Source: Siphonobacter sp. BAB-5405
GTDB lineage: Bacteria > Bacteroidota > Bacteroidia > Cytophagales > Spirosomataceae
NCBI RefSeq assembly: GCF_002872335.1
Contig: NZ_NJAG01000029.1
Location: 1 to 63,947 of the forward strand
Length of the DNA: 63,947 nt
Direction of reading: 5' to 3'
The notes beneath the pieces were generated by a model that made no database searches, had not been told where the DNA came from, and saw only the letters and a program-made list of their open reading frames with translations. Shown here piece after piece: positions 1,254-35,668 of the stretch (position 1 is its first letter; each line of letters opens with the position of its first letter). Both the position numbers and the translations under genes were made by a program.

Positions 1254-1284
1254 CGAATGAAAAGTCAGCCGTACTACGCGTTGG

Positions 1285-1393
1285 CTTATCGAGAAGCGGG
1301 GAGAGACGGGCTCTATGAACCGCTGGCAACCTATTCCAACTGGGAACAAGGTGCTAATTCCTGCCCTGAAGAAGGTCTTCCGGGAGAGATAAG
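1285..1393 (+). ncRNA. SAM-I (S-box) riboswitch
   Basis: The closing helix P1 is CTTATC (1285-1290) with GATAAG (1388-1393). Between them sit the conserved S-box elements in order: the purine-rich GAGAAGCGGGGAGAGACG segment, CTATGAACC, the GGCAACC block, the CAAGGTGCTAATTCC block, and a final GGGAGAGATAAG. It binds S-adenosylmethionine and should lower expression of metY when SAM is abundant. The spacing to metY (start at 1601) leaves about 200 nt for the expression platform. A reading frame that crosses this region is an accident of the RNA sequence. Confidence 0.93.
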
Positions 1394-1420
1394 GATAAAC
1401 ACGATTCATGCTACGGACTA

Positions 1421-1588: not shown

Positions 1589-2905
<1,317 letters not shown>

Positions 2906-2986: not shown

Positions 2987-4354
2987 TTGTCTGCGTTACA
3001 AAAATTTCATTACCCGCAGGAGTTTGCACTGGAATGTGGGCGGGTGCTGCCAGAGATTGAGCTGGCCTATCATACGTTTGGAACCCTGAATGCTACTGCT
3101 AGTAATGTGGTGTGGATTTGCCATGCCTTAACGGGCAATTCAGATGTAACGGATTGGTGGAGCGGTCTGGTGGGAGAAGGAAAACTTTTGGATACGCGTC
3201 AGTACTTTATCGTTTGTGCCAATGTGCCGGGTTCAGCGTACGGTTCTACGTCGGCCCTCTCGATCGATCCGCTCACGCAGGAACCCTATTATCAGGATTT
3301 TCCATTGATTACCATTCGTGATGTGGTCAAGAGTCTGGACCTGTTACGGGAACACCTGAACCTCCAGCAGATCCGTATGCTCGTTGGCGGTTCGCTGGGA
3401 GGTCAGCAGGCTCTGGAATGGGCCATTCAAAAGCCTGATCTTTTTGAGCAGCTAATTTTAATTGCTACCAATGCTCGGATGTCGCCCTGGGGTATTGCCT
3501 TTAACGAATCCCAGCGGATGGCCATTGAAGCCGACCAGACGTGGCAGGAACGCCGTCCTGACGCGGGTACCGCCGGAATGAAAGCGGCCCGGGCAACCGC
3601 ATTACTCAGTTACCGCAGTGCGGTTATGTATGAATTCACTCAGGCTCGGGAAGAATCCGCCCTTGAACATTACCGGGCAAGTTCGTATCAACGGTATCAG
3701 GGGGAGAAGATTGGCAGTCGTTTCAATGCCTTTTCCTATTATACACTCTCGCGTATGATGGATTCACATGACGTTGGCAGGAATCGGGATGGAGCCATGA
3801 CCGCTCTCAACCAGATTAAAGCTCAGACCTTAATTATTGGTATTCAGTCGGATGTACTTTTCCCGGTAGAAGAACAGCGATTCCTGGCCCGTTATATTCC
3901 CAATGCTGAACTCACCGAGATTGACTCGCTGTATGGACATGATGGATTTCTGGTAGAAAATGAACTCATGACGAAGACGATTCGTACGTGGGAACTATCC
4001 AATCAGCTGGGCTCCGCCGAAGAAGAAGACGAACTCATTGTACGCGATCGGGTACGAGTGGATGTTCGCAAGGGCGTTCGCGAGTACATTGCCGTGGACA
4101 ATATTTCGTTCCTAGCCAAACCCTATACAATCCATTTAATTAGCGGTCATCGCATCGAGTCCGATACGATATTAGATAAGGTAAGTCAGGCTTTACAGGA
4201 TAGCTATGACTTCAGTGATTTAAGTCCGGAGCTACCGCACATTCTGGCCAACATGCGAAACATCAAGAATTTTGATGAAAAAACGCATCGCATCTATCTT
4301 AGCGATGGCCGGAGTCAAACGCTGCCACCCGCGTTTCCGTTAAAGACCCTGTAA
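2987..4354 (+). CDS. metX: Homoserine O-acetyltransferase with a C-terminal LytTR-like domain
   Basis: Residues 1 to about 340 are an alpha/beta-hydrolase of the MetX family, which acetylates homoserine with acetyl-CoA. The nucleophile is Ser136 in LVGGSLGGQQ, with Asp289 (GIQSDVLFP) and His318 (LYGHDGFL) completing the triad. MetX proteins usually end near here, but this one continues to residue 455. After an acidic linker (SAEEEDE), residues 352-455 follow the pattern of a LytTR DNA-binding domain: YIAVDNISFL, a YTIHLISG strand pair, an ILDKVSQAL helix, NMRNIKNFD and IYLSDG. The start is a TTG; no ATG or GTG lies in a better place. Enzyme function is secure; the DNA-binding role of the tail is inference. 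Confidence 0.93.
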   Translation: MSALQKFHYPQEFALECGRVLPEIELAYHTFGTLNATASNVVWICHALTGNSDVTDWWSGLVGEGKLLDTRQYFIVCANVPGSAYGSTSALSIDPLTQEPYYQDFPLITIRDVVKSLDLLREHLNLQQIRMLVGGSLGGQQALEWAIQKPDLFEQLILIATNARMSPWGIAFNESQRMAIEADQTWQERRPDAGTAGMKAARATALLSYRSAVMYEFTQAREESALEHYRASSYQRYQGEKIGSRFNAFSYYTLSRMMDSHDVGRNRDGAMTALNQIKAQTLIIGIQSDVLFPVEEQRFLARYIPNAELTEIDSLYGHDGFLVENELMTKTIRTWELSNQLGSAEEEDELIVRDRVRVDVRKGVREYIAVDNISFLAKPYTIHLISGHRIESDTILDKVSQALQDSYDFSDLSPELPHILANMRNIKNFDEKTHRIYLSDGRSQTLPPAFPLKTL

Positions 4355-31160: not shown

Positions 31161-33593
31161 TTAGCGTTTACTGATTTTCAGCGTACTTAAAACCTTGGGA
31201 TGGTTTTCATCAATGGCTTTCAGATACAAAAGTTCATTCAGTTTTCCCTCGGCCCAGGTATTAACCATGTTATCATAGTACGGACTACCCGGATTGCCCG
31301 ACTGTCCGCCGGGATATACACCATAGGCCGTTGGTCCCTCTTTTCCCAGAGCCACCACCATTCGCCAGGACGGTCCCCATTTACCCCGGAAGGCATTCGG
31401 CACATCGGCACCGCCGCCCGCTACTACGTTCGTACGACCAAAGGATTTCAAGGGAGGTACCAAGTGAGCAATCGTCGATCCTTTCACCGCTCCCCAAGCC
31501 CAGTTTTTCGAGGAATAGGTCCCGTACTGGCGGGTGAGCGAATCGACGGTCGCCTTGAAGCTAAGCCGAATAATATCCGTCTGATTCTCTTTTACGTCCG
31601 CCGTTTCGACGCGATCAAACCATTTCGAATCCGGTTCTTTTAGAATGAGTTTCCAGAGTCGGTCTTTCTGCGGACGCTGTAACGGTTTCTTCGCGTCCGT
31701 CGTGAATTCATCCCAGACAAAAGAAGGAAGATTTTCCACCCATTTTTCAAAAATGGTCGGAGCTACGGCCTGCGTCGTGTACTCATAATCCCACTGCTGC
31801 AGAGCCGTGTACGTTGAGTATTGGGAGGCATTAAGTTCCCCTACTTTGATCTGCTCCAGTAAAGTAGGGAGCAAGTCCCGGGCCAGCACGTTGTAGTTGT
31901 CGTTTTGTAATAATCGCAGGCTGTCAATGGTAGCCCGCTGCATGGCTTCAAGTCGTTCATTAATCCGAATAGCCCGGTTAGCCTCCGCAAAACGCCAGTG
32001 CAGGTAATACGGATACGACTCATCGACGGGGGCCTGGTTGGCCGAACTTACGTATCCTTGTTTGGGATTTTTTACATGGGGATTGTGTTCGTGAGGAATC
32101 CAGCCCTGCCAGTCGTGAGCAGATTTAGAGCCGTCCAGCAGGAACTTACCCTGTTCTTTCCATTTTAACGGAAACTTTCCATTCACCCAGATGGCAATGT
32201 CGTTTTCATTACTGGCGAAGACAAAGTTTTGTGCCGGAGCGACGTAATGACTCAAGGCTCGTACGTAATCGTCGTAATTTTTCGAGCGGTTGAGCATATA
32301 GAACGTTTTGACGGGATTACCCGGCTCGTGGGCAATCCAGCGTAAGGCCAGACTCGGCGTAGGGTCATTCCCCCAGCGGGGCAGTGCCACCGGCCCGTGA
32401 TGCGTATACACCACCGTATCGATCACGGACGGTTTGCCTTTGACCTTGATTTCCTCCACCCGGAAGCTGGTTTTGTGCCATTGCCGCCGGTACAGGTATT
32501 CACGTCGCGTAGAATCTTTAAATACGATGGTGTACAAATCAGCTACGTCGGAGCCTACGTTGGTTTCGCTCCAGGCAATGTCGTGGTTGAATCCAATAAT
32601 GATGCAGGGAGCCCCCGGCAGCGATACCCCGTAGGCATTGCTTTCGGGCGTGGTGAGCTGAATTTGGTACCAGATGGAAGGAAGCGTTAAGCCCAGGTGC
32701 GGATCACCCGCCAGAATGGGTAAACCCGTAGCGGATTTCTCACCCGCAATCGCCCAGTTGTTTGACCCGATTCCTTCGACCCGCTCGGGCCAGGAAAGTG
32801 GCTCGCGGACGGAAGCCGTCCCTTCGGTATAGTCTTTCGGTACTTTGGGAAGGGGGCTGCGTTTGAAATTCCATTTCGTCCCTTTGGGGATGATCGGACT
32901 TTCACGATCGGCGTAATCGGGGTATAAATCCTGGAGTACTTCCAGACCAAACTTTTGCAGCACATTGGTCAACGCCGCATCACCGTCGCGGGGGGTCGCC
33001 AAGGTATGAGTCATTTCTACCATGAGTAACATGGACTTTTCCGGCGTCCAGGCTTCGGGCGTAAAGCCCAGCATTTTGTACTCAATGGGATAATCGGCAG
33101 GCCGCAGATTGGACAGGTACGCATTGATCCCATCACTGTATGCTTCGATGACACGGCGAATTTTCGCGTCCTGTTGCACAAACTTCCAGGCTTCCTCGGC
33201 GGCTTTTACCGAACCCGTCCGGCGTTTGTATAAATCCAGGGGCAGAGCCTGCTCCCCTACTACTTCACTCAGACGTCCGGCGGCAGAACGGATCGTCAGA
33301 TCCATTTGAAACAGGCGATCCCGAGCCGTTACGTAGCCTTGAGCGTAGTATAAATCGTGATCATTGCTTGCGAAAATGTGCGGAACCCGGTTGTCGTCGA
33401 AGCGAATAATGACCTCCGATTCAACGCCCGGCAGATGTATTTCAGCGTCGAGCATCTGAATGCGACGCTCATTACTCCAAAAACCCGAAAATGGACTTAA
33501 GAAGGCCCCCAGGGCGGGCAAGGGACTAAATGAAGTGCCCAGAGCCCACAACAACCCACCCGTGAGGGTCAGACTAAGAACCGCTTTCTTCAT
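31161..33593 (-). CDS. Penicillin acylase family protein (Ntn amidohydrolase)
   Basis: A precursor of 810 residues that cleaves itself into alpha and beta chains. The N-terminal signal anchor (KKAVLSLTLTGGLLWALGT) leads to the alpha chain (ITIRFDDNRVPHIFAS-like start, YYAQGYVTARDRLFQMDL). The beta-chain nucleophile is Ser277 in IGSNNWAIAG, followed by AGDPHLGLTLPSIWYQI, both hallmarks. It acts in the periplasm and can remove acyl groups from amides, such as penicillin G, N-acyl-homoserine lactones or other N-acyl compounds; the substrate here is unknown. The acyl-homoserine-lactone option would make it a quorum-quenching enzyme. It is followed by a small membrane protein and the OmpH-like gene. 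Confidence 0.9.
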   Translation of the reverse strand: MKKAVLSLTLTGGLLWALGTSFSPLPALGAFLSPFSGFWSNERRIQMLDAEIHLPGVESEVIIRFDDNRVPHIFASNDHDLYYAQGYVTARDRLFQMDLTIRSAAGRLSEVVGEQALPLDLYKRRTGSVKAAEEAWKFVQQDAKIRRVIEAYSDGINAYLSNLRPADYPIEYKMLGFTPEAWTPEKSMLLMVEMTHTLATPRDGDAALTNVLQKFGLEVLQDLYPDYADRESPIIPKGTKWNFKRSPLPKVPKDYTEGTASVREPLSWPERVEGIGSNNWAIAGEKSATGLPILAGDPHLGLTLPSIWYQIQLTTPESNAYGVSLPGAPCIIIGFNHDIAWSETNVGSDVADLYTIVFKDSTRREYLYRRQWHKTSFRVEEIKVKGKPSVIDTVVYTHHGPVALPRWGNDPTPSLALRWIAHEPGNPVKTFYMLNRSKNYDDYVRALSHYVAPAQNFVFASNENDIAIWVNGKFPLKWKEQGKFLLDGSKSAHDWQGWIPHEHNPHVKNPKQGYVSSANQAPVDESYPYYLHWRFAEANRAIRINERLEAMQRATIDSLRLLQNDNYNVLARDLLPTLLEQIKVGELNASQYSTYTALQQWDYEYTTQAVAPTIFEKWVENLPSFVWDEFTTDAKKPLQRPQKDRLWKLILKEPDSKWFDRVETADVKENQTDIIRLSFKATVDSLTRQYGTYSSKNWAWGAVKGSTIAHLVPPLKSFGRTNVVAGGGADVPNAFRGKWGPSWRMVVALGKEGPTAYGVYPGGQSGNPGSPYYDNMVNTWAEGKLNELLYLKAIDENHPKVLSTLKISKR

Positions 33594-33622
33594 GTCGATG
33601 TACTGTACGTGATGTAAGAATA

Positions 33623-33630
33623 CAAACGTA
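33623..33630 (-). promoter_or_regulatory. -7 element of the penicillin-acylase gene
   Basis: TACGTTTG on the minus strand, a perfect TAnnTTTG, about 30 nt before the ATG. No TTG at the right distance was found. Confidence 0.5.
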
Positions 33631-33734
33631 AGGGTTCTAACGGCAAGAAAAAAGAGATTTTCCCGGTGATTCGGTACGCGACCAGCTCGATAGAGTGATT
33701 GGTAATTTCGATTTAGGTAGTACTTTTTACCGCA

Positions 33735-34520
33735 TTACTTACCCATCCATTTTTTAAAATCGCTTACTTTTTCCCGACTCACCAACGCTTCTTTTTCAAA
33801 GACGGGCTTCAGCCCTAGTGCCAGGCGATTACCAAAATACGGCTGAATCTGTTCCACACTGGCGTGCGTAACGATGACGCCCCGACTGATTCGGAAGAAC
33901 AAATCCGGATCAAGCATATCGGTTAGTTCATCGAGGGTATAGTCTACCAGAAACTTCTGACCGGCATGGGTTTTAAAAAAGCTGAATCGCTCGTCGGTAA
34001 AGAAAAAGGCAATTTCGGCTACTTCTACTGATAACAGCCGCTGCCCCTGCCGTACCAGAAACCGCTTGCGGTATTCTTTGGTCTGCATCTGATTTCGCCA
34101 GGCCTGTAGCACCTGATCCAGATTGAAGGGTAAGGAAGGCTGTGCCCGAGCTGACAGATCATGGTACTTGCGAAGCCCGCGTTCGAGTTCTTCCCGCTGT
34201 ACGGGTTTGAGCAGGTAGTCGATACTATTGACTTTGAAGGCCTGCAGAGCGTATTCGTCGTAGGACGTGGTAAAAATGATGGTACTGAAAATATCGACCT
34301 GTTCGAAAATGGCAAAGCTTTGTCCATCGGCCAGTTCAATATCCATGAAAATCAGATCCGGTTCGGCATGGCCCTGCTGTCGGTTGCTTTCAATCCAGTC
34401 AACGGTTTCTTCGATACTCGCCGTCGAGGCCAGTACTGTTAGACTGGGTTCGATTTCCTGTAACAACCGAATCAGCTTGCGGACGGCTAATTCTTCATCT
34501 TCAACGATTAAAACGTTCAT
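33735..34520 (-). CDS. LytTR-type response regulator
   Basis: Two-component response regulator of 261 residues. The receiver domain (1-125) has the acid pocket VEDEE, the phospho-acceptor Asp60 in DLIFMDIEL, Thr/Ser in IIFTTSYDEYALQAF and Lys in DYLLKPVQR. The C-terminal LytTR DNA-binding domain (about 155-255) has FLVRQGQRLLSVEVAEIAFF, LFFRISRGVIV and the basic EKVSDFKKWM end. It overlaps by 4 nt the upstream histidine-kinase gene, so phosphorylation by that kinase is very likely. Its target genes are not shown; a direct or inverted LytTR binding pair near the operon promoter was not identified. Confidence 0.95.
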   Translation of the reverse strand: MNVLIVEDEELAVRKLIRLLQEIEPSLTVLASTASIEETVDWIESNRQQGHAEPDLIFMDIELADGQSFAIFEQVDIFSTIIFTTSYDEYALQAFKVNSIDYLLKPVQREELERGLRKYHDLSARAQPSLPFNLDQVLQAWRNQMQTKEYRKRFLVRQGQRLLSVEVAEIAFFFTDERFSFFKTHAGQKFLVDYTLDELTDMLDPDLFFRISRGVIVTHASVEQIQPYFGNRLALGLKPVFEKEALVSREKVSDFKKWMGK

Positions 34521-35668
34521 ATATCCGATACATTTTCAGTGAATAAAGGCAACAGAATTTTAAAGTGATCGGGACCGTTGGTAATCTGCGGTTCCGGCTG
34601 ATCGAGTAAGCGGTAACGGGCGGTAATGTTAGACAGCCCCACCTTCGTCGATTCAACGACGCCCGGACGTTTGGCTTTGGTTTGCAGGTTATTACTTACC
34701 AGCAATTCACCCGTCGTTGTCGTACCAATGTGAATATGCAGGGGCTTGGTAGCCAGAATGACGTTGTGCTTCACCGCATTTTCCACCAGCATCTGAAGGG
34801 TCAGGGGTGGCAACTGGTACTTGAGATATGCCGGATCGACGACTACATCCAGGTGTAAACCAGCTCCGTACCGGGTTTTGAGCAAGTGGTAATAGGAATG
34901 AATAAAGGCCAGCTCTACCGAGAGCGGCGTTAGTTCGCGTTCGCTGGTCTGTAGCAGATAGCGATAGACTTTCGCCATTTCATTGACAAAGTCCTCAGCT
35001 TTCTGCGGCTCGTCGGCGATGAGTGACGAGAGTGAGTTTAAACTGTTGAACAGGAAATGGGGACTGATCTGACTCCGCAAGCTCTGCAATTGACCCTGCA
35101 AACGGGCTTTCTTGAGTGTTTCCTTATTTTTCTGGCTCGCCTGCCATTGTTCCAGAGAATAAAATACTTCATAGATAAAGACAAAGGCTAGCAGCGAAAA
35201 CACATCGACAGCGTACAAAAACACGAGCGTGGGCGGCGTGACATCTGCTCCGGCAAGCCGCTTGAACAGATGATTCCACGTGGGAATGATGCCATGATTG
35301 GCCTGCATGGCTTCGAGCGATATTTCCGTGTGAAAGAACCCGCCCAGAGCAAACAGCGTCAGATAGAAATACAGAAAAAAGGCGGTCAGGAACGTGAAAC
35401 TCAGCGTCATCCAGATAATCCGCTTGACCGTTTGCCGCAAGTGGGGGTACCGACGGGTAATTACGTCAGCCGCGTAGTTATGAGCGACAAAAGCAACGGT
35501 ACTCAGGATACCTACCACCAGCGTTCCGCCCAGGAAATTTGACCAGTTTTGCAGGTACGGACGCCCAATCAGCAAATACGCCATCAGGGGAATAATCCAG
35601 GGAGCGATGAAGGCGTACATCCAGCGACTCCGGGCCGTGGGGAAGCAGCGATGAATCAGCTCTTTCAT
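34517..35668 (-). CDS. LytS-type sensor histidine kinase (first of two)
   Basis: Membrane sensor kinase of 383 residues with several N-terminal helices (WMYAFIAPWIIPLMAYLLIG, then TLVVGILSTVAFVAHNY and others to about residue 170). The catalytic part is the His-kinase_2 type: His204 in SQISPHFLFNSLNSL, and the ATP-binding N box QMLVENAVKHN. The sensing part has no known ligand domain, so the stimulus is unknown. It overlaps the response regulator (4 nt) and the second kinase gene upstream (4 nt), so all three are one translationally coupled operon. Confidence 0.93.
   Translation of the reverse strand: MKELIHRCFPTARSRWMYAFIAPWIIPLMAYLLIGRPYLQNWSNFLGGTLVVGILSTVAFVAHNYAADVITRRYPHLRQTVKRIIWMTLSFTFLTAFFLYFYLTLFALGGFFHTEISLEAMQANHGIIPTWNHLFKRLAGADVTPPTLVFLYAVDVFSLLAFVFIYEVFYSLEQWQASQKNKETLKKARLQGQLQSLRSQISPHFLFNSLNSLSSLIADEPQKAEDFVNEMAKVYRYLLQTSERELTPLSVELAFIHSYYHLLKTRYGAGLHLDVVVDPAYLKYQLPPLTLQMLVENAVKHNVILATKPLHIHIGTTTTGELLVSNNLQTKAKRPGVVESTKVGLSNITARYRLLDQPEPQITNGPDHFKILLPLFTENVSDI

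Follow-up and report, generated by a model that had tools for sequence, protein, structure and literature searches.

A conserved C-terminal domain of probable LytTR ancestry fused to the homoserine O-acetyltransferase MetX in Siphonobacter

The homoserine O-acetyltransferase MetX of Siphonobacter sp. BAB-5405 carries, behind its catalytic core, a C-terminal tail that is conserved in all six genomes examined of the genus and that resembles a subgroup of LytTR domains, a family known as the DNA-binding output domain of regulators. We lean, with moderate confidence, towards the reading that a LytTR fold was taken over here as an accessory domain with no DNA role, on the sole full-length MetX that the genome encodes. 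The gene was analysed within a stretch of 63,947 nucleotides (contig NZ_NJAG01000029.1, positions 1 to 63,947 of the forward strand), hereafter the window, and its features are collected in Table 1.

Table 1. Features of the metY-metX operon and of the MetX protein; positions are those of the window.
Feature	Position	Strand	Basis or remark
SAM riboswitch (RF00162) in the metY-metX leader	1283..1395	+	Rfam, 78 bits
metY, O-acetylhomoserine sulfhydrylase-type	1601..2905	+	434-aa ORF, presumed metY from sequence and context
metX	2987 (TTG)-4354	+	single open frame, 455 aa, no internal stop
MetX core (homoserine O-acyltransferase), residues 1-337	2987..3997	+	TIGR01392 E=1.7e-105, residues 11-334
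Acidic linker, residues 338-351	3998..4039	+	E-rich in 6/6 genus sequences
Probable LytTR-derived domain, MetX residues 352-443 (tail residues 11-102)	4040..4315	+	hhalign vs 11 receiver-LytTR regulators
Loop at the FxRxHRS site after its F, tail residues 69-74	4214..4231	+	motif absent
Last 12 residues and stop	4316..4354	+	lacks the Ser-Arg and last helix of LytTR

By the four top-scoring NCBIfam MetX models the core ends at residue 334-335, and the best PDB MetX sequence match spans residues 13-341, leaving about 114 residues that consist of an acidic stretch and about 105 more. The preliminary description of this DNA, made from the sequence, had claimed an extra C-terminal domain on MetX; it is indeed encoded in the same uninterrupted frame, and all the segments quoted there (YIAVDNISFL and others) are present in the tail. 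MetX scores 353 bits with TIGR01392, under the equivalog cut-off of 500, and 319 vs 331 bits with PRK00175; model scores favour acetyl rather than succinyl as the donor group. Ser136, Asp289 and His318, which we take to be the catalytic Ser-Asp-His triad, are present in 30 of the 30 MetX rows aligned. The apparent start is a TTG, with no in-frame ATG upstream in the window; the Leu-Ser pair at the start is common to the genus (window, L002, L008-L011), and L009 has an ATG a few codons earlier. The genome holds one full-length MetX match and two distant relatives with partial matches. A second MetX-like protein of 377 aa (G000:C43:175158-175640, L148) scores 101.6 bits with TIGR01392 over model positions 4-179 only; it is perhaps an esterase, and carries a likely secretion signal as judged by eye.

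The SAM riboswitch which the preliminary description had assigned to the metY-metX operon is recovered by Rfam, and a metY-like ORF also lies directly upstream of metX in L008-L013. The riboswitch precedes metY in four genus records and equally in three relatives whose MetX is tail-less; the tail has thus not taken the place of the riboswitch. The region upstream of metY was searched for direct repeats in three records; none was found in the window or in L008, and L010 has one imperfect 16-nt pair containing a TTTGC, presumably a promoter-like element. The absence of direct repeats in two of the three records and the presence of the riboswitch in tail-less relatives both speak against the earlier proposal that the tail controls the methionine operon. 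A gene at 445-1092, which we take to encode a NeuD-like hexapeptide acyltransferase, is divergent from metY-metX, an arrangement kept in L008-L011.

The tail is present in all six Siphonobacter genomes examined (the window genome and G001-G005); since these agree, a frame artefact or assembly error was rejected as its origin. A tail search over 59 genomes, our own included, returned the six genus genomes and, as the sole other match, a protein of G012 (E 0.008) that is not LytTR, and a profile of the six tails run over 222 family genomes matched the six genus members at E 1.8e-60 or lower, with two weak matches at E 0.003 and 0.007. No further MetX-tail fusion appeared in 395 phylum genomes (E<=0.05) or in 390 order genomes (E<=0.02), both sets being samples from larger groups. 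At E<=1e-40, MetX itself is detected in 212 of the 222 genomes of the family, and in 181/181 of those with a completeness of 90% or more and a contamination of 5% or less. In 33 loci the residues following the MetX core profile number 119-124 in the six genus members and 5-33 in 27 others (26 distinct). The MetX frame of G176 (427 aa) was rejected as a tail carrier, its extra length lying at the N-terminus. The fusion is thus confined to Siphonobacter among the genomes searched; the preliminary description had pointed to other Cytophagales as the place to look for it, and what emerged was its presence in all six genomes of this one genus and none beyond in the four scans. No LytTR gene that could be the fusion source adjoins metX in the 33 loci, taken with flanks of about 1.5-3 kb.

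Within the genus, the tails are 63-79% identical to that of the window, whole MetX sequences are 76-89% identical to one another, and 52 of the 92 positions of the LytTR-derived domain are invariant in the six sequences. For the sister-genus genome G170 the MetX identity is 68%. Eight of the 15 pairs within the genus give a finite dS and a tail dN/dS of 0.015-0.17, a rough ratio with dS >1 in these pairs too, and in the other 7 dS is saturated; core dN/dS is 0.023-0.076 in 14 of 15 pairs, and dN is higher in the tail than in the core in 13 of 15. The tail is under purifying selection. A chance extension with no conservation in close relatives, which the preliminary description had named as the alternative to its proposal, does not agree with the tail's occurrence in 6/6 genus genomes or with these ratios. 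Marks of a docking face on the MetX core were sought by comparing six genus rows with 24 family rows; eight columns are genus-specific, three of which are gapped in the family, and the set is not interpretable.

Family models do not see the domain. The window tail has no Pfam match at E<=10, PF04397 (LytTR) included, and no NCBIfam match; PF04397 matches none of the six genus tails at E<=10, and the sole Pfam match among these is DUF1357 in two of six (best E 0.036). The family scan against Pfam LytTR thus came out negative, and annotation by these models would miss a LytTR kinship. PF04397 has 19 matches in our own genome, the MetX tail not among them; one is the regulator at 33.7 kb, to which the tail had been likened earlier, and as this scores 61.9 bits where the tail has no match, the direct likeness falls away. 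The regulator (33735-34520, -) adjoins genes at 34517-35668 (-) and 31161-33593 (-), presumably for a LytS-like kinase and a penicillin-acylase-like protein, within positions 31161-35668 of the window. A PDB sequence profile search of the tail gave nothing useful (phage scaffold protein, E 0.13; zinc metallohydrolase, E 1.3).

An HMM of own-genome LytTR domains reached E 0.026 at best in a search of the six tails, and these domains score against a tail HMM better than shuffled sequences (p=2e-6) but not better than reversed ones (p=0.097). Four tail searches gave weak matches at 18 distinct loci, of which a local LytTR HMM recognized two, L021 and L022, as LytTR and 16 as not; the latter include a GlmM-type phosphohexomutase and SufD (Pfam), as well as proteins that we take to be LmbE-like and thiamine pyrophosphokinase-like. 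Both weak matches of the 222-genome family scan are LytTR proteins: L021 (31.9 bits to PF04397) is a receiver-LytTR response regulator (1048-1890 of that locus) adjoining a LytS-like kinase, and L022 (58.1 bits) is a lone LytTR of 108 aa.

Because only 2 of the 18 weak-match loci were LytTR, a set of L021 relatives was built from 81 family genomes, with resemblance to L021, rather than to the tail, as the criterion. All 30 loci contain LytTR, and the 11 regulators used first also have a receiver domain (local HMMs); the seed L021 (L117) and its 77% ortholog (L118) were left out of the hhalign sets. Aligned with the 11 L021-type regulators, the tail reaches 96.8% hhalign probability (P=3.1e-10, score 58.5, 89 columns), with 15 other relatives 86.5% (P=4.5e-6), and with all 26 together 95.7% (P=8.3e-9). 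Control scores are 10.6-11.9 for reversed tails, 12.6 for receiver domains, and on average 11.7 (SD 2.5, maximum 22.6) in 150 trials with shuffled-column tails, the latter run against 28 subgroup rows, two of them wrongly extracted, where the real tail has 86.5%. The register between tail and LytTR is nearly full-length and collinear, running through the beta region, the helix "ILDKVSQAL", the N of "HILAN" and "IKNFD...IYLSDG". Against 49 LytTR rows chosen regardless of subgroup (19 from our own genome and the 30 best PF04397 matches, one row being repeated) the match is not significant (hhalign 0.4%, P=0.13), nor do the parts fare better, with 0.2% for the 30 best-PF04397 rows alone and 4.3% or 3.7% for the 19 own-genome rows; the 71% and 74% reached when the LytTR panels include L021/L022 are selection-biased and were discounted. 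The link therefore runs through the L021-type subgroup only, and the proposed homology depends on a subgroup whose seed was a single weak match. With this reading of the profiles, the tail is very probably a divergent LytTR relative. The LytTR identity proposed in the preliminary description thus stands as kinship to one subgroup, and does not stand as membership in the family that PF04397 or the 49-row panel describes. Since defining features of the family fail, we call the tail LytTR-derived and not a LytTR DNA-binding domain.

That the tail has some other fold, or one newly arisen, and resembles LytTR by chance convergence is quite improbable. The failure of the family model and of the 49-row panel, the mere two LytTR loci among 18 weak matches, and a best weak match that is a GlmM-type protein (E=5.9e-4) would all fit such a coincidence, and BLASTP too puts a 43-aa GlmM fragment (7e-7) ahead of L022 (1e-5) and L021 (4e-5). 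Against it, the GlmM signal falls to 0.5% in hhalign when 30 orthologs are used (1.5% if the seed is included), for which reason GlmM kinship was rejected and its likeness taken as a chance match, whereas LytTR holds its 96.8% without the seed, over the nearly full-length register. Structure prediction gives weak models, with an AlphaFold pLDDT of 47 for the tail alone and of 59 for full-length MetX, where most of the tail is under 50. A Foldseek search of the tail-only weak model against 350,542 PDB chains has as its first match the AgrA LytTR chain 4g4k_B (110 columns, E=0.22, probability 0.14), and five more AgrA LytTR chains (3bs1_A, 4g4k_A, 4xqj_D, 4xqn_A, 4xqj_A) stand in the top 22. The E-values of these AgrA matches are 0.22-0.71, with probabilities of 0.14-0.18 and a TM of about 0.2; ferredoxin-reductase fragments (35-38 columns) rank between them and reach probabilities as high as 0.57. 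The first place of LytTR points away from coincidence, at the strength that a weak model allows.

What the tail has kept and lost of LytTR can be read from the DNA-contact positions. Within LytTR domains the motif FhRhHRS, residues 196-202 of AgrA, is the most conserved; in AgrA, R198, N201 and S202 contact DNA, H200 is needed for binding, and F196, N206, I210 and N224 are among the residues whose change impairs stability (PMC4227749). The equivalent columns were counted in 49 panel rows, 28 rows of the L021-type subgroup and six tails, given below in this order. F is kept in the F196 column (46/49, 28/28, 6/6), N in the N206 column (36/49, 28/28, 6/6) and I, V or L in the I210 column (49/49, 25/28, 6/6). 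The first motif Arg, R198, is present in 49/49, 18/28 and 0/6, the tails having L in three and otherwise D, Q and P, and the Ser of S202 in 33/49, 21/28 and 0/6. The H200 column reads H28 N13 S8 in the panel, H17 S7 and others in the subgroup and S5 T1 in the tails, and position 201 reads R43 K6, then Q9 K8 R5 N3 and others, then P5 Q1. FxRxHRS is lost from the tails except for its first F. Further on, where the alignment is uncertain, the C-terminal Ser is found in 33/49, 26/28 and 0/6 (K5 P1 in the tails) and the next Arg, likewise in an uncertain part, in 30/49, 23/28 and 0/6; the Arg of this Ser-Arg pair has a role in DNA contact in LytTR domains. MetX ends before the last LytTR helix. The loop after the motif F has one invariant position in six, vs 52/92 for the whole domain, and is the lowest of the segments compared. 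The net charge of the domain without its linker is 0 to +2, and the LytTR medians are +3 and +2.5.

All ten of the 28 subgroup rows without the motif Arg belong to the 13 seed-like regulators L117-L129, and the Arg is missing in 8 of the 11 regulators nearest the tail, the very set behind the highest hhalign value. Its loss therefore looks at least partly older than the fusion, and is by itself no proof of lost DNA binding. As a separate observation, L117-L129 form a Cytophagales receiver-LytTR subgroup with a degenerate FxRxHRS (10/13 without Arg), the subgroup mostly keeping the C-terminal Ser-Arg. The losses of the motif Ser, of the C-terminal Ser-Arg and of the last helix appear to be private to the tails. 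Fold-associated positions that are kept beside a DNA loop that varies freely are what would be expected if DNA binding had been given up, and we consider it probable that the tail does not bind DNA. The earlier suggestion that MetX could also act on DNA fits poorly with a motif reduced to its F, a C-terminus without Ser-Arg and helix, and a motif loop that is the least conserved segment.

A trigger enzyme is nevertheless conceivable, in which the tail, with changed contacts, would still bind DNA or the leader RNA and MetX would signal the state of its pathway to the metY-metX operon or elsewhere. The LytTR ancestry and the charge of 0 to +2 are in keeping with it, and with the motif Arg missing from 8 of the 11 response regulators nearest the tail, there is room for a subgroup with another binding mode. 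This is nonetheless unlikely. The motif Ser is gone from the tails as well, with Pro at the preceding position in five of six, and so are the C-terminal Ser-Arg and the last helix, which most of the subgroup retains; the variable loop, the scarcity of repeats upstream of metY and the riboswitch shared with tail-less relatives tell against it as well. Its specific form, in which the subgroup-derived tail would bind operon DNA or the SAM-riboswitch leader non-canonically and couple the state of the enzyme to sulfur-metabolism expression, appears rather unlikely; if true, it would present a LytTR regulator without receiver or membrane sensor. Nor is it likely that the domain is a LytTR-derived passenger kept only for the solubility or stability of MetX, with no regulatory role. 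The variable motif loop would suit a passenger, as would a tail under purifying selection yet with dN above that of the core in most pairs; the many invariant domain positions count against one, to the extent that from these alone a role in stability and one in regulation look the same.

A protein-protein module, which the preliminary description had offered beside a DNA-acting MetX, would fit better than the latter. In the accessory-domain reading that we prefer, the fusion would have arisen once, at the base of the genus, from a LytTR of the divergent Cytophagales subgroup. The tail would no longer read DNA and would work by contacting proteins, most likely as a module for oligomerisation, docking or allostery on MetX, which may set the activity of the enzyme or keep it close to MetY, the enzyme that follows in the pathway. 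If this is true, the LytTR fold has been reused for the control or assembly of a core biosynthetic enzyme, and the MetX tail would provide a small, testable module.

In comparison with known systems, the tail shares with LytTR (PF04397; C-terminal domain of Staphylococcus aureus AgrA, PDB 3bs1, 4g4k) a profile homology to one subgroup over 86-89 columns and the positions equivalent to F196, N206 and I210 of AgrA; it differs in having no Pfam match, no FxRxHRS apart from the F, no Ser-Arg and no C-terminal helix, and in being joined to an enzyme instead of a receiver or sensor domain. Its closest relatives found, the L021-type Cytophagales regulators with receiver and LytTR, share the missing motif Arg in 10 of 28 rows; however, they mostly keep the C-terminal Ser (26/28) and Arg (23/28), and the 11 used are regulators and not enzymes. 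The enzyme part agrees with known homoserine O-acetyltransferases (TIGR01392; PDB 2vat, 6iog, 2b61) in its core, its Ser/Asp/His, the metY-metX order and the SAM riboswitch, and differs from them by the extension of about 114 residues. In the open-licence literature searched, we found no paper naming both homoserine O-acetyltransferase and LytTR, no LytTR paper with the phrase 'not bind dna', and, among titles and the opening lines of abstracts, no mention of a fusion of this kind. Trigger enzymes with DNA-binding domains are known in PutA and BirA, which, as MetX very probably does, join a metabolic enzyme to a domain of DNA-binding ancestry; unlike them, the MetX tail lacks the canonical DNA-contact residues. 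Both parent families are already known, and what is new is the joined MetX-LytTR architecture together with the degenerate state of the domain.
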